A DNA stretch of 31,544 nt from a virus. The stretch lies in IMG/VR virus record IMGVR_UViG_3300030106_006047, positions 2,115-33,658 of that record; one strand, written 5' to 3'. A program made the position numbers and the translations under genes. This document shows positions 14,695-29,968 of the stretch, piece by piece. How positions within the stretch are numbered: position 1 is the stretch's first letter; every line of letters begins with the position of its first letter. Under the pieces are notes generated by a model. It was not told the origin of the DNA and did not search any database. It saw only the letters and a program-made list of their open reading frames with translations.

Positions 14695-14746
14695 TTGTTA
14701 TTATTGTGTGTAAATAGTTGCAAATAGTTGCAATTTTTAGTAATAT
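14695..14746 (+). promoter_or_regulatory. TTGCAA promoter with two boxes 10 bp apart
   Basis: Two overlapping copies of AAATAGTTGCAA occur at 14712-14723 and 14722-14733. The first TTGCAA (14718-14723) is exactly 17 bases from TAATAT (14741-14746), a good -35/-10 pair for the small-gene operon starting at 14792. A 16-base stretch (14711-14726) recurs exactly at 26988-27003 before another small-gene operon, and TTGTTATTATTGT (14695-14707) recurs at 27013-27025. Confidence 0.6.
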
Positions 14747-14791
14747 ATCTATGTGGGAATTTTAATTGAAAACACTAAAAAGGAGGGTGGA

Positions 14792-15049
14792 ATGACTGCA
14801 AAGATTGTTAGCAACGATTGTTGCGATTATAAAATTGAGAACGATCAATTAATTTACAACGACTTTAAAGGAACAGGTGATAACAGTTGGGGAGAAGTTC
14901 AATTATTTGAACACTTCTCTAAAGGTGATATTGCTTATATGAAAAAAAAGTTTGGTCAAGATTTTAGGGTTTGGTGTAGTCAGTTTGGAGATTGCACAGA
15001 ACAATTAATTGATACAGACGAACTTGTTGAGTTTAAGGAGGTATTGTAA
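14792..15049 (+). CDS. Small hypothetical protein, first gene of a tiny-gene operon
   Basis: 85 aa from the ATG at 14792, which has a very strong ribosome binding site (AAGGAGGGTGG) just upstream; an upstream GTG in frame lacks one and is not favoured. The protein is soluble with five cysteines and alternating beta/helix segments (DNSWGEVQLFEHFSKGDIAYM in the middle). No recognised family. It is followed at once by three more small genes coupled by one-base or short overlaps, an arrangement typical of early phage host-takeover genes. Confidence 0.65.
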   Translation: MTAKIVSNDCCDYKIENDQLIYNDFKGTGDNSWGEVQLFEHFSKGDIAYMKKKFGQDFRVWCSQFGDCTEQLIDTDELVEFKEVL

Positions 15050-15246
15050 TGGCTTATAAAAATTACACAAGAGAAGAACTTATTAAGAAGTTCGGTAAAA
15101 GCAAAAAACATTTATATGTTTACAGAAAATACGACTACATAAACCATGAATATATTTACGAGTTAAGAAGTGTAAAAAACAAACCGCATGAAAATCATAC
15201 AACAATAGATGAAATTTTAAGTGAGGAGGCGGCGATATGGAAATGA
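15049..15246 (+). CDS. Small hypothetical protein
   Basis: 65 aa, basic and tyrosine-rich (YRKYDYINHEYIYEL). The ATG overlaps the previous stop by one base (TAATG) and follows AAGGAGG, so translation is well supported. No domain recognised. It is part of the 14792-15514 operon of tiny genes. Confidence 0.6.
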   Translation: MAYKNYTREELIKKFGKSKKHLYVYRKYDYINHEYIYELRSVKNKPHENHTTIDEILSEEAAIWK

Positions 15247-15383
15247 TCGGAGGATATACTTTGGTTGAGAGACTTGAAATGACTATTAAGAATATCAAGT
15301 TTCAAAAGGGTAAGGTTTTTTGGGACGATCTTGAGAAACTTGAGTTGATACTTGAAGCGCTTAAAAAGCAGGAGGTGGCGTAA
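15237..15383 (+). CDS. Small hypothetical protein (48 aa)
   Basis: ATG at 15237 preceded by GAGGAGG, TAA at 15381-15383. It overlaps the previous gene by ten bases. The peptide is mostly one long amphipathic helix (VERLEMTIKNIKF, then DDLEKLELILEALKKQE), suggesting a helical-hairpin or coiled-coil protein-binding role. No family recognised. Confidence 0.55.
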   Translation: MEMIGGYTLVERLEMTIKNIKFQKGKVFWDDLEKLELILEALKKQEVA

Positions 15384-15514
15384 TGGATTTAATAGATAAA
15401 ATAAAAGAATGGTTAGAAAGAGAAGTTGAACACAACAATATATATGGAGATGATCCTACTGATGTTGCCAAAGACTTGCTAACAAAAATCAAAGATTGGG
15501 AAACAGAGAAATAA
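15383..15514 (+). CDS. Small hypothetical protein (43 aa)
   Basis: ATG at 15383 overlaps the previous stop by one base and follows GGAGG at suitable spacing; the stop is at 15512-15514. The peptide is acidic and helical, with a loop 'NNIYGDDPTD' between two helices (LIDKIKEWLEREVE and VAKDLLTKIKDW). It ends eight bases from the stop of the leftward exonuclease gene, with no visible terminator between the convergent genes. Confidence 0.5.
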   Translation: MDLIDKIKEWLEREVEHNNIYGDDPTDVAKDLLTKIKDWETEK

Positions 15515-15522
15515 TCTAGCCA

Positions 15523-23708: not shown

Positions 23709-23860
23709 AAACGTGGCGCAAACATAGCGCGCAAGGTTGACACCGTATCCTCTGGTACATCACGCAAATGTTTAGGCACTTCACCCTCACATTTATGCTT
23801 TAAAATCTCATTAACAGGAATAGTCCTGCCACATTTTTCACATTTAGCTTTTGCTATCAT
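23705..23860 (-). CDS. Small zinc-finger-like protein (51 aa)
   Basis: ATG at 23860, TAA at 23705-23707. 'KCEKCGRTIPVNEILKHKCEG' contains CxxC (residues 7 and 10) followed by HxC (residues 22 and 24), a C2HC-type zinc knuckle. GGAGG lies seven bases before the ATG. Its first 17 bases overlap the end of the methyltransferase gene, so it is the last gene of the leftward operon. It is convergent with the oxygenase and overlaps its stop by four bases. A DNA- or protein-binding role is likely. Confidence 0.6.
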   Translation of the reverse strand: MIAKAKCEKCGRTIPVNEILKHKCEGEVPKHLRDVPEDTVSTLRAMFAPRF

Positions 23861-25613
23861 TTTCAACCTCCATATTTTGTAAAATATGTTTTATAACCTC
23901 TACTGTCCAACCGTTGCCAAGCATTTTATAGCGCTGAGTGTTTGATACATGGTTCGTGTAATTATCCGGGACTGTCTGCAAGCGCTCACATTCCAACGGT
24001 GTAAGCTTACGCCAGTGTAGTTCATCAACACTATCCCATTCATGTCTGTCATAAGATCCTCTGCCACCAGCTCTAACTGTTTTTGATTTTTCTCGCAGTT
24101 TTGACTCTTGAACCACCACACTATCTTTACCAACTGTAGTTATAGCGTTTGATTTATTATCTTTGCGTAGCTCTAACATCTGTTTAGTTTGCTTTGCAAC
24201 TGAACTACCATCCCTATCTTTTCTTTTACCATCTTTGTCGTACGCTCTGCCACGAAACGCACCACCTGTGACAACCTTTGGCTCTCTATTACCACCTTGA
24301 CAGGTATTGACCGTTGGCGATTTACCTTCTGGACTATACACTCGTTTCAGCACATCATGGCCACTAATATCTACAGCAACACCTACTTGTCTAGGCCTCG
24401 TCTCTATCATCTGTTCTTTGTTTGATGCAGTAAGCGTAGGTGATTTTCCTTGATCGCTATAAACCCTTTGTGTGCTTTCAAATACACCATCTCTATATTC
24501 AAACTCCATAATCTGTTTATCAAATACGCTTGATGTAAACCCAAGAACTTCTTTGAGCTTAAACCATATATCATCACTTGGTATAGCAAAGCTACTATCA
24601 GTTCTAAACCAATGCTCTACTTTAGTGATTGGCATATTTGTTTCATCTGCAATTTGTTTGTTAGTTTTTTTACTATTTTGTTTGTAAGCACGAAGCGCTT
24701 GTTGTAATAACAAAATATCAACCTCATGCTTTCTAACCTTTACTTCTTCTACATTCATGCCTACTTTGATAGGTTTCTGTGGAACTAAGGCCATACCATT
24801 ATTCCCAGCACCTTTGTACATAGTCGCTGTCATACACAAAGACTTCTCATCTAACTGTTTGAGATGTCTGCGATTGCGCTCTGTTTTTTTCACAGGCTTG
24901 TGCACCGGCTTACCATTATCATCACAGGCCAGGTAATTACCTTGTCTGCCGTTCTTAACATATTCCATAGCAGATAAATTACTAGCCTTTTCTTTGTTTT
25001 GGTCAATCATGCAATTTCTATCGCCATTTCTTTTAACAAACTTATCTGACATCTTAGTAAAATTATTTGGCTCTGTTTCCAATATATCTCTCAACACTAT
25101 ACCCCTATCCTCTGGTTGCTTGATACCTGGTATATTAGTCCAATAATATCTTTGTCTGGATTGAGCGCTAAGAAGCGAACTATTTATAAAAATAGGCTCA
25201 ATACCAAACGGTATCTCTGGATAACACTCCGATACTTGTTGGGATATAACTTGTAAGAATTCTTTTTTCATTCTTACATTTTCAAGTAAAAAATATTTTG
25301 GCTTAATTACTTTGAGCAAGCGTATGAACTCAAAAAACAATGCAGATCTAGGATCATCAAAAGCTAGCTGCTTACCTGCAAATGAGAAACCCTGACACGG
25401 ACTGCCTGCTAAGATCAAATCTACATCTTTGTAATCTTTTGGATCTAAATTACAAATATCGCCAACTTGTTCTATATCTGGATAGTTTGCTGCACTAACT
25501 TGCATAGCGTATTTATCAATTTCACTAGCGTAATACTTCTCTACAGGTAACCCAAGCTGATCGAGTGCAATCCGCCCACAGCTCATACCGTCAAATAAAC
25601 TTAATACTTTCAT
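23844..25613 (-). CDS. C5-cytosine DNA methyltransferase with several putative target-recognition modules
   Basis: 589 aa, longer than the usual 330-450. Motif I is 'LFDGMSCGR' (6-14), motif IV 'GSPCQGFS' with catalytic Cys73, motif VI 'ENVRM' (111-115), motif VIII 'QSRQRYYW' (151-158), motif X 'GNGWTVEVI' (566-574). Between VIII and X the variable region is about 400 residues and holds five short lookalikes of a 'xKSxTxT' element (near 257, 390, 431, 487, 509). It also has an inserted helix-turn-helix-like segment at 296-358 (QIADETNMPITKVEHWFR). Multi-specific phage methyltransferases carry several recognition modules here (family knowledge). It probably protects phage DNA from restriction. 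No partner restriction enzyme was found. Confidence 0.9.
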   Translation of the reverse strand: MKVLSLFDGMSCGRIALDQLGLPVEKYYASEIDKYAMQVSAANYPDIEQVGDICNLDPKDYKDVDLILAGSPCQGFSFAGKQLAFDDPRSALFFEFIRLLKVIKPKYFLLENVRMKKEFLQVISQQVSECYPEIPFGIEPIFINSSLLSAQSRQRYYWTNIPGIKQPEDRGIVLRDILETEPNNFTKMSDKFVKRNGDRNCMIDQNKEKASNLSAMEYVKNGRQGNYLACDDNGKPVHKPVKKTERNRRHLKQLDEKSLCMTATMYKGAGNNGMALVPQKPIKVGMNVEEVKVRKHEVDILLLQQALRAYKQNSKKTNKQIADETNMPITKVEHWFRTDSSFAIPSDDIWFKLKEVLGFTSSVFDKQIMEFEYRDGVFESTQRVYSDQGKSPTLTASNKEQMIETRPRQVGVAVDISGHDVLKRVYSPEGKSPTVNTCQGGNREPKVVTGGAFRGRAYDKDGKRKDRDGSSVAKQTKQMLELRKDNKSNAITTVGKDSVVVQESKLREKSKTVRAGGRGSYDRHEWDSVDELHWRKLTPLECERLQTVPDNYTNHVSNTQRYKMLGNGWTVEVIKHILQNMEVENDSKS

Positions 25614-26159: not shown

Positions 26160-26420
26160 TTAATTACTGAAAAAATCCTCTGGTTTGTATTCATTTGCTG
26201 CTTTAATTTCTAGCTTTATAGCTTCAACTCGTTTTATCATCTTCTCAAACTTTTTATCCTGTGGCATAACTCCCTTTTTTGTAAAATCTCGCAAAACTTT
26301 GGGCAGAATATCAAGAGCTTTTGCCATACTTGTATTATTGTGAAAATAATGTTTTGTCAAAAACTGTATGTCCTTATGAAGCCTTATTACTTCTATTTGT
26401 TTAATCATACTTCTAATCAT
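26160..26420 (-). CDS. HTH-like small protein, paralogue of its upstream neighbour
   Basis: 86 aa, helical and basic. It aligns end to end with the 101-aa protein encoded just upstream: KD-(I/L)-QFL near the start, a degenerate helix-turn-helix in the middle (SMAKALDILPKVLRDFTKKG), then V-x-x-IK-x-x-IK and Y-x-PE-x-FF at the end. The recognition helix is less conserved here than in the neighbour. Its ATG overlaps the neighbour's stop by four bases. Probably a regulator or a protein that pairs with the neighbour. Confidence 0.6.
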   Translation of the reverse strand: MIRSMIKQIEVIRLHKDIQFLTKHYFHNNTSMAKALDILPKVLRDFTKKGVMPQDKKFEKMIKRVEAIKLEIKAANEYKPEDFFSN

Positions 26421-26722
26421 TCTTCTTTTTCTTTATCAAAAAAAAATTTTTCTGGATCGTACTTATCGACCTCTTTAATTGCTCTTTTAATTAAATTTAC
26501 TCTCACTAAGACATGATTATAAGTTCTGTCATGCATTTTATGATTTCTTTTCAACCAATCTCCCATAACTTTGCCTGTTACGCCTAACATTCTGCCTAGA
26601 GCTGCATCCGACTTAAAAAATCTTTCTTTTAAAAACTGCAAATCCTTTTTAAGTTTCATTTCTTTAATTTCTCTGTCTAAACAAAAACCGTCATCCTCTT
26701 TAAAAATATCTGCTCCCATCAA
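26417..26722 (-). CDS. HTH-like small protein, second paralogue
   Basis: 101 aa. The middle 'AALGRMLGVTGKVMGDWLKR' reads as a helix-turn-helix of the Cro/CI type. Flanking helices (KKDLQFLKERFF and VRVNLIKRAIKEVDKY) and the ending 'YDPEKFFF' are shared with the 86-aa neighbour, so this is a tandem duplication. It overlaps both neighbours by four bases (ATGA). A DNA-binding regulator of the leftward operon, or of the divergent rightward one, is likely. Confidence 0.6.
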   Translation of the reverse strand: MMGADIFKEDDGFCLDREIKEMKLKKDLQFLKERFFKSDAALGRMLGVTGKVMGDWLKRNHKMHDRTYNHVLVRVNLIKRAIKEVDKYDPEKFFFDKEKEE

Positions 26723-26937
26723 TGCACCACCCTTGTCGCCGCATCGTCTTTATAAACCACTCCAACCTTGCGGCCATTCATTTCTTCAATCTCTTGCCAC
26801 AGCTTAAGATCCTCTGGCGCCATCTCAGACATAGCTATCTGATTGTATGGCTTGTCATGTTTCCTAGACAAGTAGCGAATAAAAATTTCTATTAACATCG
26901 GATACAAAGTATCTTTGATATGTTTTGGTTTATTCAT
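26719..26937 (-). CDS. Small hypothetical protein, first gene of the leftward regulatory operon
   Basis: 72 aa. 'IFIRYLSRKHDKPYNQIAMSE' and 'PEDLKLWQEIEEMNGRKVG' are helical; the end is beta-like. GAGGGA lies eight bases before the ATG. It is the first gene after the divergent promoter region. No recognised family, though the first half could form a small helical DNA- or protein-binding domain. Confidence 0.6.
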   Translation of the reverse strand: MNKPKHIKDTLYPMLIEIFIRYLSRKHDKPYNQIAMSEMAPEDLKLWQEIEEMNGRKVGVVYKDDAATRVVH

Positions 26938-26971
26938 AATAATTTTCCCTCAAAATTAACTTACAAAAAAC

Positions 26972-27025
26972 AATATACTAAATTTTATAAATAGTTGCAA
27001 ATATCTGCTCATTTGTTATTATTGT
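26972..27025. promoter_or_regulatory. Bidirectional TTGCAA promoter
   Basis: TTGCAA (26995-27000) reads the same on both strands. Rightward it is 16 bases from TATTAT (27017-27022). Leftward it is 17 bases from TATATT (26977-26972 on the minus strand). One box can thus act as -35 element for both the operon at 27058 and the operon at 26937. A 16-base stretch (26988-27003) is identical to 14711-14726. Confidence 0.6.
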
Positions 27026-27057
27026 ATCGTGAGTAACAAATTTTTTATGGAGGGACT

Positions 27058-27258
27058 ATGAAAAACAAAAAAGTTTTATTTATTGATAAGTGGAATGATG
27101 TTTGTGAGGGCATCATTATCGACAACAACTATAAACACGAGGATCTACCACACCTAGACTGCGTGCTTGTCGAAACGACTTCTGAGCTGCATGGAGAACC
27201 ATTTACTTTTCAATCTGTCATTGAAAGAGATCAAATTATTACTAAGGAAGCAGTATGA
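27058..27258 (+). CDS. Small hypothetical protein
   Basis: 66 aa, acidic, with beta strands (KVLFIDKWNDVCEGIIID, 'CVLVETTSEL'). A strong GGAGGGA precedes the ATG. It is the first gene of a rightward operon ending in the serine recombinase, with each start overlapping the previous stop (ATGA). No family recognised. Confidence 0.65.
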   Translation: MKNKKVLFIDKWNDVCEGIIIDNNYKHEDLPHLDCVLVETTSELHGEPFTFQSVIERDQIITKEAV

Positions 27259-27518
27259 ACGTCAAAGAAGATACTATGAAAAATCTTGTTTTTATTGTAA
27301 AAGAGTGGGCCAGAACACAAGATCTTAAAGAAATTGCAGAACTATATAATGATGCAAAAAATGACGAGAGAATGAAACAGACACTAGATGACGGTGGCAA
27401 ATGTTGGAATATTGACCACGGTCTAGGTCTTGGCGCTACTGACTGGCTGTTTGAAACTAGAAACATTTTAAGAATGATTAAACGTGGTGAGATTAAGTTT
27501 GAGGAGAAGGCAATATGA
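27255..27518 (+). CDS. Small hypothetical protein
   Basis: 87 aa, helical and soluble (KNLVFIVKEWARTQDLKEIA, 'DWLFETRNILRMIKRG'), with a Gly-rich centre 'DDGGKCWNIDHGLGLGATDW'. It overlaps both neighbours by four bases. AAGGAAG precedes the start. No recognised family. Confidence 0.6.
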   Translation: MNVKEDTMKNLVFIVKEWARTQDLKEIAELYNDAKNDERMKQTLDDGGKCWNIDHGLGLGATDWLFETRNILRMIKRGEIKFEEKAI

Positions 27519-27811
27519 AAAAATGGTGGGTTTACATAAACGGCTATAGGGTTGTTGAGACCAAGTCTATTGGATATAAGTGGGTGCGTTATAGAACATC
27601 TGAAAACTCTCTTTTTAGAAGAATCAAAAGAAGCGAGTGGGACAAGGCGTGCATTAGACCATTAGAAGAACAACAACACAGACTACACATTCGCAATCTA
27701 GCTGATGACTTAAATATATCTAATGTAAAAAAATCAAGGAAAAAATTTGGTTGGTCTTACAAGACTTTTACAGAATTAGAATCTGAGGTAATTGATAAGG
27801 AGGCAATATGA
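27515..27811 (+). CDS. Small basic hypothetical protein
   Basis: 98 aa, rich in Lys, Arg and Trp. The first half is beta-like (KKWWVYINGYRVVE); the second half contains 'NLADDLNISNVKKSRKKFGW', which could be a helix-turn-helix. It directly precedes the recombinase with a four-base overlap, so a recombination directionality or DNA-binding accessory factor is a reasonable guess, no more. Confidence 0.6.
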   Translation: MKKWWVYINGYRVVETKSIGYKWVRYRTSENSLFRRIKRSEWDKACIRPLEEQQHRLHIRNLADDLNISNVKKSRKKFGWSYKTFTELESEVIDKEAI

Positions 27812-28599
27812 TTGAGCCAAGAAAACAAGTAAACCATATCTACGGCTATATCAGAGTATCGTCTGAGCAACAGGTCAAAGACGGCTCTTCACTCGAAGAA
27901 CAAAAAAGATCGATTGAGGAGTTTGTCGCTAACAAATATGGTGGGAGGAAAGTTGACAAGTTCTTTACCGACGCTGGTATCAGTGGCATGAAGCCATTAT
28001 TAGAGCGACCAGGCTCTAGGGAGCTGACCGACGTTATGGACGCCAACGATGTGATAGTAGCAACCAAATTAGACAGGCTCGCAAGATCTTTTCTCGAAAT
28101 GCTGAACATGATACCTACGCTTGAGGAGACCGGTATCACACTGTATTTCTGCGATATGTTCAATGATATACCTGTGGTTTTACCTAAAGAAAAAGCCAAA
28201 ACAGGCCTAGAGGCAAAGATGGATATGACAAGGATCGCTAACCAACAACTGGTCACCAATATGGCCATGTTTGCTGAGATTGAAAGAGAAACGATTATGT
28301 CAAGACTCAACGGCGGCAAACTTGTCTACGCAGAAAAAGGCTATTCTATTGGCGGTAAAACGCCGTTTGGTTATCGCAAGGAGTATGACGACTCTGGCAG
28401 TAGACGCAGAACCAAGCTAGTGCCCATACCTGAGGAGTTTGCAGTGCTGAAACATATTTGGGCGTTACGCGAAAAAGGCTTAGGTGCAAGGAAAATAGCC
28501 AAACAGATCCAAAGCTCTCATCCCGGCTATGAGGATTTTCCGTATCACAAGGTCCACAGGATCCTAAAACGTAAGTTCCAAGGACTGCACCACGAATAG
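27808..28599 (+). CDS. Serine site-specific recombinase, short form
   Basis: 263 aa. 'YGYIRVSSEQQVKDGSSLEE' carries the catalytic Ser of the resolvase/invertase family, 'VIVATKLDRLARS' the conserved DRLARS arginine motif, and 'FAEIERETIMSRLNGG' the E-helix end. A recombinase-type domain follows (GGKTPFGYRK to 'KVHRILKRKFQGL'). There is no zinc ribbon or long coiled coil, so it is longer than a DNA invertase (about 190 aa) and much shorter than a large serine integrase. It could invert a segment, resolve multimers or integrate. No paired crossover sites were identified by eye. Confidence 0.85.
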   Translation: MIEPRKQVNHIYGYIRVSSEQQVKDGSSLEEQKRSIEEFVANKYGGRKVDKFFTDAGISGMKPLLERPGSRELTDVMDANDVIVATKLDRLARSFLEMLNMIPTLEETGITLYFCDMFNDIPVVLPKEKAKTGLEAKMDMTRIANQQLVTNMAMFAEIERETIMSRLNGGKLVYAEKGYSIGGKTPFGYRKEYDDSGSRRRTKLVPIPEEFAVLKHIWALREKGLGARKIAKQIQSSHPGYEDFPYHKVHRILKRKFQGLHHE

Positions 28600-28630: not shown

Positions 28631-29968
28631 ATGTATCAAAATATTGACATATTCCAACAAGGTGGAGCAGCTGACAAAGATCTTTTAGATCGAGCGGTTG
28701 AAGGCTACGAAGAGAATGTGCCTTTACTCGCACAAATAGCAGCTGGTTTTACACCACCCGGAATGGCAGCAGACTTAGTCGCTGGCGGTAAATACGGCCG
28801 CGATGCAATCGAAGAGTTTAGAGAAGGCAATATAAAACCTGGCCTAATGTATGCAGGTATCGCCGGACTCTCAACTCTTGGTGCTTTACCGCTGATTGGC
28901 GATTTATTTAGACCAGGCAAACAAGCGCTAAAAAGCGGTATTGCTAGCTTACCAACCACCAAAGCAGATGTTATGAAACATCAAGAGGATTTATACTCAG
29001 GCAATACGATACGCGATGCCAATAAAATGTTTGATCGAGCTGTGCGTAGCGCACCTGAGTTTAATCAGAGCATAGATGAATTAGCAGCAAGCTTAAATCT
29101 ATCAACCAGCTTGCCCAGCAAAACACTTAAGTTTGATAGCTATGGAGTGCCTTTTGGCAAAATAAAACAAGTGCCTAGAGCAATCGAAAAGTCTGTCGAT
29201 AAGTATGAAGGTGATGTAACAAAGCTAACCGATCCCATAAGAACAAGAGTTTTAGTCTCTACACCAGCAGAGGAAGAGGCTTTGGTTAGTCTTATTAAAG
29301 AAAATTTTGAAACTTTTGATAAAGGCAGATTAGTGAAACCTGAAGGTTTTGTCGATCGTAAGCTACTAATTAAATTTACCAACTCTAAAGGCGAGCCTAT
29401 AGTCGGTGAAATATCTGCTATTACTGAACCTATGTGGCGCGCAGCTGACGCTAATCATAAGGCCTTTGAAGAGTTTAGATCTTTATTTCCCAAAGGCATG
29501 CCAACTGATGCAGCAGAGCGTCAAGCAATTAATGCTGATATTTTAAGGAGAGGGGAGGAGCTTGAAAAACAAATGAGTGCTACATTTGGCGTTGCTAAAA
29601 AACAAATAGATCCTAGTTTTTATAAACCAGACGTTAAAAAATTTGCTATGGGTGGCTATGTCTCAGCTGGTAGCTCGGGCAAATCTTTACCGATTACGCC
29701 AAACTTGTCAGCAAATGCAGACTTAGACATTTTTTCACCGTCAATCAAAAAGTCGGCTACTTGGCTAGGCATAGCTAGTGTCCAGTCAGACTTACCGGGC
29801 GCTATGAAGTATCCTTCATATCCCATGCCAACAGGATCGACAACCGCAGGACCGTCCTCCCATGTAAAAAATAAAGTTTCTTTTGCCATCACCCCTAGTT
29901 TACACAAATTTACAAAAATCTACAACCCAAATCAAATTAATATTTTTGATAAAAACGATGACCGATAA
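28631..29968 (+). CDS. Effector-like protein with RelA/SpoT-like core and virion-type motifs
   Basis: 445 aa. Residues 4-12 (NIDIFQQGG) resemble the start of the operon protein at 9428 (SIDMAEGG). Residues 31-110 are a Gly/Ala-rich hydrophobic module ending 'KSGIASLP', like that of the 573-aa protein. Residues about 175-285 resemble a RelA/SpoT-type nucleotidyl-/pyrophosphotransferase: 'KYEGDVTKLTDPIRTRVLV' (Asp201, Arg204), 'EGFVDRKLLIKF', 'VGEISAITEP' (Glu260) and 'DANHKAFEEFR' (His276). FAMGGYV at 338-344 is the short motif also found in the proteins at 5587 and 10645. The last 100 residues are Ser/Pro-rich and overlap an antisense frame. Activity is inferred from weak motif similarity. 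Confidence 0.5.
   Translation: MYQNIDIFQQGGAADKDLLDRAVEGYEENVPLLAQIAAGFTPPGMAADLVAGGKYGRDAIEEFREGNIKPGLMYAGIAGLSTLGALPLIGDLFRPGKQALKSGIASLPTTKADVMKHQEDLYSGNTIRDANKMFDRAVRSAPEFNQSIDELAASLNLSTSLPSKTLKFDSYGVPFGKIKQVPRAIEKSVDKYEGDVTKLTDPIRTRVLVSTPAEEEALVSLIKENFETFDKGRLVKPEGFVDRKLLIKFTNSKGEPIVGEISAITEPMWRAADANHKAFEEFRSLFPKGMPTDAAERQAINADILRRGEELEKQMSATFGVAKKQIDPSFYKPDVKKFAMGGYVSAGSSGKSLPITPNLSANADLDIFSPSIKKSATWLGIASVQSDLPGAMKYPSYPMPTGSTTAGPSSHVKNKVSFAITPSLHKFTKIYNPNQINIFDKNDDR
29656..29886 (-). CDS. Possible antisense small protein (76 aa)
   Basis: ATG at 29886, stop at 29656-29658, entirely opposite the C-terminal part of the 445-aa gene. The translation (MAKETLFFTWEDGP, 'YEGYFIAPGKSDWTLAMPSQ', 'ADFLIDGEKMSKSAFADKFG') has the balanced composition of a real globular protein, whereas the sense frame here is unusually Ser/Pro/Thr-rich. 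AGGGG lies close before the ATG. Codon third positions of the two frames coincide, so a bystander reading is possible. Its being a real gene is uncertain. Confidence 0.35.
   Translation of the reverse strand, partial: AKETLFFTWEDGPAVVDPVGMGYEGYFIAPGKSDWTLAMPSQVADFLIDGEKMSKSAFADKFGVIGKDLPELPAET

Follow-up and report, generated by a model that had tools for sequence, protein, structure and literature searches.

Two predicted divergent promoters of an uncultured phage group share a self-complementary -35 box

Divergent promoters with genes for DNA-binding proteins nearby are known from phage lambda (PR/PRM). In the MotA-dependent middle promoters of phage T4 the -35 is replaced by a phage-specific box, which is followed by a sigma70 -10 element; we know of no divergent use of these promoters. 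Bidirectional promoters of E. coli have been measured directly: in five of them weakening one direction hardly altered the other at basal activity, and competition was confined to conditions of strong activation in one direction (PMC12825309). In pLS20, overlapping divergent promoters form a switch in conjunction with the regulator Rco (PMC4207663). A literature search that combined back-to-back promoters with -35 elements returned no paper.

The locus described here lies in a window of 31,544 nucleotides, positions 2115-33658 of a 33,658-base IMG/VR virus record (IMGVR_UViG_3300030106_006047). The first-pass annotation had placed a self-complementary TTGCAA as common -35 box between a TATATT 17 nt to the left and a TATTAT 16 nt to the right, and coordinates and spacers were exactly reproduced. 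The box occupies 26995-27000 and can be read on both strands. The leftward -10 TATATT (AATATA on the plus strand) is located at 26972-26977 on the minus strand. The rightward -10 is an extended element, TG(T)TATTAT, at 27014-27022 on the plus strand, made up of TGn at 27014-27016 and TATTAT at 27017-27022. Transcription is predicted to start leftward at 26965, 6 nt past the -10 and judged from spacing only, and rightward at 27029, so that the two predicted starts are 64 bp apart. At the predicted rightward +1 we found GTGAG (27029-27033, plus strand), the start motif that defines the promoter class described below. TTGCAA is surrounded by an 18-bp quasi-palindrome (26989-27006) with the consensus AAATAGTTGCAAATATTT, of which AAATAGTTGCAA is invariant. 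Both flanking ORFs, beginning at 26937 on the minus strand (72 aa) and at 27058 on the plus strand (66 aa), are preceded by a Shine-Dalgarno sequence.

Single promoter-like matches are about as frequent in the region as chance predicts (17, with 14.9 +/- 4.0 expected), and single pattern matches therefore prove little. We scored the joint divergent arrangement, defined as one hexamer with at least 4/6 matches to TTGACA on both strands and a 5/6 match to the -10 on each side. This arrangement is found once in the window. Over 60 shuffles of the whole window the mean was 0.03, and of 4000 shuffled versions of the intergenic stretch 6 contained it. TTGCAA itself matches 4/6 in each direction; the consensus used is of the E. 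coli type and is assumed to apply to the host.

Relatives were gathered via the recombinase (52 loci), via the genes of the left operon and via the DNA of the element. The 71-bp element at 26971-27041 is found ungapped in 34 other IMG/VR contigs, giving 24 distinct sequences including the window; these sequences are related and the counts given for them are not independent events. TTGCAA and the preceding AAATAG are invariant in all 24. To the left of this block only 4 of 34 columns are invariant (26972 and 26975-26977), and these are exactly T1, A2, T3 and T6 of the leftward -10. It reads TATnnT in 24/24 homologues, with the variants TATATT, TATTCT, TATACT and TATAAT. By chance, four invariant columns would land on TAT..T in 1 of C(34,4) = 46,376 cases, a figure that ignores kinship. 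In the rightward -10, positions T1, A2 and T6 as well as the TG of the extended element are invariant in the 24 sequences, and in distant relatives only TTGnA of the box is retained. The fixed columns are those that would be expected if two sigma70-type -10 elements were constrained to a set distance from a common box. The first gene on either side is freely swapped among relatives and the promoter stays. Among cultured phages we found no convincing copy of the shared-box element or of the promoter class. A host and prophage search of GTDB genomes (84,980 species) likewise returned no match in the pattern scan, and no relative in the recombinase scan.

The rightward promoter belongs to a class with the layout AAATAGTTGCA box, 16 or 17 nt, TAnnnT, 6 nt, and GTGRG at the predicted +1. 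It fits the class fully in box, spacing, -10 and GTGRG (match at G000 29106, position 26992 of the window). The class regular expression yields 16 sites in eight genomes, compared to about 0.1 expected in shuffles. Pattern scans of IMG/VR recovered 33 distinct tandem-box promoters, all 33 with a Shine-Dalgarno sequence and an ORF shortly downstream. The same holds for 33 of the 36 distinct matches of the single-box scan, and the other three look like chance matches. The proteins encoded downstream of the IMG/VR class promoters fall into 50 clusters, which indicates that the promoter is constant and its cargo varies. The class is present at more than 60 distinct places, ahead of small swapped genes. 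The leftward promoter falls outside it: the reversed box reads TATTTGCAA or similar, and most sequences have something other than GTGRG at the predicted +1.

The class provides an internal control for the shared box. We distinguished between divergent members, with a nearby gene that points leftward (23 distinct), and one-way members (41 distinct); the members are related, so that the counts are not independent. Every divergent member carries both TTGCAA and a TATnnT 17 nt to its left (23/23 each), compared to 18/41 and 2/41 of the one-way members, respectively. One-way members with a single box mostly have TTGCAT (13/19), which is not self-complementary. These counts agree with the box being maintained for two-way use, as far as sequence comparison can tell. 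Since a palindromic box accompanies divergent genes and the left -10 is missing from one-way members, the comparison alone separates bidirectional promoters from look-alikes. In addition, the class marks, by sequence alone, the promoters of exchangeable small-gene operons in uncultured phages, and these operons are good places to seek host-takeover or counter-defence genes.

The same phage has a second class promoter at 14697-14757 on the plus strand. It has tandem AATAGTTGCAA boxes at 14713 and 14723, 10 bp apart, followed by the -10 TAATAT at 14741-14746 and GTGGG at 14753-14757, all on the plus strand. Just upstream of the tandem boxes, at 14697-14704, there is an extended -10, TGTTATTAT, which is also present in many relatives, as if a further start were located there or parts had been reused. 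The AATAGTTGCAA box is also found at other promoters of related phages. Behind the tandem-box promoter (14697-14792) follows a block of small genes at 14793-15515 that has no counterpart in seven related genomes and looks like an exchangeable cargo site. The genes behind this promoter, like the first genes to the right of TTGCAA, are mostly missing from relatives that keep the promoter. In 7/8 distinct one-way members, recovered with a pattern that did not require it, a second box follows the first at a distance of exactly 10 bp. In the clade of L019, L025 and L026 the leftward promoter itself has the tandem-box layout. The leftward gene of these three is an unrelated protein of 439-442 aa to which no family could be assigned.

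The two flanking operons had initially been labelled as regulatory and recombinase operon. The left side does contain HTH-like genes and the right side a serine recombinase, but the recombinase is only the fourth gene, behind three small ORFs, and the pairing does not hold across relatives, in which the first genes on both sides are swapped. The left operon comprises the 72-aa ORF, two small HTH-like paralogues, two further ORFs and a C5 cytosine methyltransferase. The 72-aa gene (26719-26937, minus strand) belongs to a conserved family in which no DNA-binding fold was recognised, and its predicted fold gave no useful structural match. The adjacent paralogues at 26417-26722 (101 aa) and 26160-26420 (86 aa), both on the minus strand, are candidate regulators. 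They match phrog_4441 (E 0.016) and are modelled by AlphaFold with a pLDDT of 82, and their top Foldseek matches are the P22 c2, Aca, HigA and HipB regulators (probability up to 0.98, E 0.26). Pfam HTH_3 gave no match, but in its predicted fold the protein of 26417-26722 is similar to HTH repressors. Of these paralogues, some relatives carry a single copy and many carry none. In about half of the relatives the first left gene is an RHH (RelB/CopG-like) gene. The Pfam match of the methyltransferase (23844-25613) is split into two stretches, and the part between them (NKQIADETNMPITKVEHWFR...) resembles a helix-turn-helix insertion, through which the enzyme might be self-regulating.

The rightward operon (27058-28599, plus strand) consists of three small swapped ORFs (27058, 27255 and 27515) and the serine recombinase (27808-28599, plus strand). 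At 263 aa the latter is shorter than large serine integrases typically are. A second copy of the recombinase's first 38 residues is located about 430 bases before a full copy in L003/L051 (contig IMGVR_UViG_3300030102_008182), possibly through scaffold overlap or partial duplication. Further downstream, at 28631-29968, conservation in several close relatives (L006, L007 and L022) is limited to the first 120 residues, which suggests that the rest of the gene has been exchanged.

Several features at the site bear on a regulator. A conserved dyad, TGTTAyT-N11-ArTAACA, spans the rightward -10 and start (27014-27038) and is a candidate operator. Its left arm overlaps the extended -10, and the right arm alone is free of a promoter-based reason for conservation. 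The dyad, the 10-bp phasing of boxes in sister promoters and the RHH and HTH genes of the left operons point to a regulator, as far as can be read from the DNA. We rejected the RHH protein as universal regulator, since a profile search did not find its gene in the window and it is patchy among relatives. Sites of serine recombinases have a 2-bp centre. The dyad has an odd length and a single-base centre, and we consider it unlikely to be such a site. The invariance of AAATAG extends beyond the -35 hexamer, so that another protein may account for some of this conservation. Concerning the reading polymerase, no phage sigma region 4 was matched in 19 records in a search that detected its control, which leaves the host sigma factor as the simplest reader. 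A search for T7-type RNA polymerase gave no match, and its control also matched nowhere.

We consider it likely that the locus contains real overlapping divergent promoters of the sigma70 type which use one self-complementary -35, with any on/off choice between them needing a regulator. The hexamer at 26995-27000 is flanked by conserved -10 elements on both sides, and the claim of two divergent promoters on one palindromic -35 is strongly supported by this conservation and by the comparison of divergent and one-way members. The shared box appears as a selected feature of the phage promoter class. The rightward promoter would be the class member placed before the exchangeable small-gene operons of this phage group, and the leftward promoter would use the same TTGCAA read backwards together with its own TATnnT. 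Most likely host RNA polymerase would read both directions, with a single molecule bound at any one time. That the two directions compete for these six bases is very likely on steric grounds, given the known footprints of polymerase and the 64 bp between the predicted starts. Two polymerases could not occupy the same -35 at this distance, which makes exclusion per binding event likely. Through the shared box both operons would depend on one recognition event and have a common timing, while competing only modestly. An on/off choice would need a regulator, most likely one of the small DNA-binding proteins encoded in the left operon or else some other factor, with the dyad over the rightward start (27014-27038) or the AAATAGTTGCAAATATTT quasi-palindrome as its target.

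Alternatively, the box could be mainly the site of a phage or host activator, in the way that MotA takes over the -35 contact in T4. Its near-palindrome would then recruit polymerase either way, and the two operons would be co-activated and not exclusive. We regard this as possible but doubtful. It would explain why AAATAG is invariant outside the hexamer, why 7/8 one-way members have a second box 10 bp on, in a spacer without sigma -35 contact, and why tandem boxes occur leftward too in the clade of L019, L025 and L026. No constant regulator gene was identified, however; RHH and HTH genes are present in some carriers of the box and missing from others, and the retention of TTGnA alone in distant relatives is a better fit to a -35 read by sigma. 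Equally tentative is the reading that AAATAGTTGCA is bound by a phage or host transcription factor that replaces the -35 contact throughout the group. At the recombinase locus its near-palindrome would allow a single bound factor to direct polymerase both ways, making it a bidirectional activator box selected while the cargo is exchanged. A repressor bound at TTGCAA, which would silence both promoters together, seems unlikely to us. The 18-bp quasi-palindrome, the repetition of the box at helical period at another promoter and the RHH gene in first left position in about half of the relatives are compatible with such an operator. A repressor would not need the fixed spacing between -35 and -10 found in every one-way and divergent member, and the profile search found no RHH gene in the window.

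The first-pass annotation had proposed that exclusive occupancy by polymerase alone makes the two operons mutually exclusive without any repressor, a compact two-state switch. Simultaneous occupancy of a shared -35 with predicted starts 64 bp apart is indeed sterically very unlikely, but exclusion per binding event without feedback has no memory. In published examples a regulator or strong activation of one side is required: at basal activity the measured bidirectional promoters compete little (PMC12825309), and the pLS20 pair works with Rco (PMC4207663). A candidate operator and genes for DNA-binding proteins are present at the site. We find this proposal unsupported and a regulator-free switch very improbable. 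That both promoters are chance look-alikes in A+T-rich DNA, conserved through recent common descent only, can hardly be maintained despite the chance level of single promoter-like matches here: spacers and flanks diverge while key hexamer positions are fixed, one-way class members are without the left -10, and the invariant columns together with the divergent/one-way control already largely refute it.

Returning to real overlapping divergent promoters as the preferred reading, we compared the locus with the known systems. From the T4 MotA promoters it differs in the sequence of the box. TP901-1 PR/PL (PMC7250872) resembles it in having divergent promoters with genes for DNA-binding proteins nearby. 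Both TP901-1 and lambda differ from it in that the right operon here is without a recognised repressor and relatives exchange the first gene on either side. No DNA-binding protein was recognised in the small right ORFs, and with inconstant flanking genes the locus is set apart from a mutual-repressor pair. The bidirectional promoters of E. coli described by Warman, Grainger and colleagues (PMC12825309, PMC10268837) likewise consist of near-symmetric DNA that accepts polymerase in two orientations, one at a time. They share a -10 and their starts are 7-25 bp apart (PMC10268837), whereas the element shared here is the -35 and the predicted starts are separated by 64 bp, which places the locus outside that type. 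We regard pLS20 Pc/Pr (PMC4207663) as the closest working parallel. There, too, divergent promoters overlap, one polymerase excludes the other, and a regulator gene on one side faces a large operon on the other. In pLS20, however, the putative -35 of one promoter is the -10 of the other, whereas here the -35 is shared and the -10 elements are located outside; furthermore, the regulator Rco is proven there and only suspected here. In kind the locus would belong to the overlapping divergent promoters, and what is new is that the -35 is shared and forms part of a promoter class specific to these phages.
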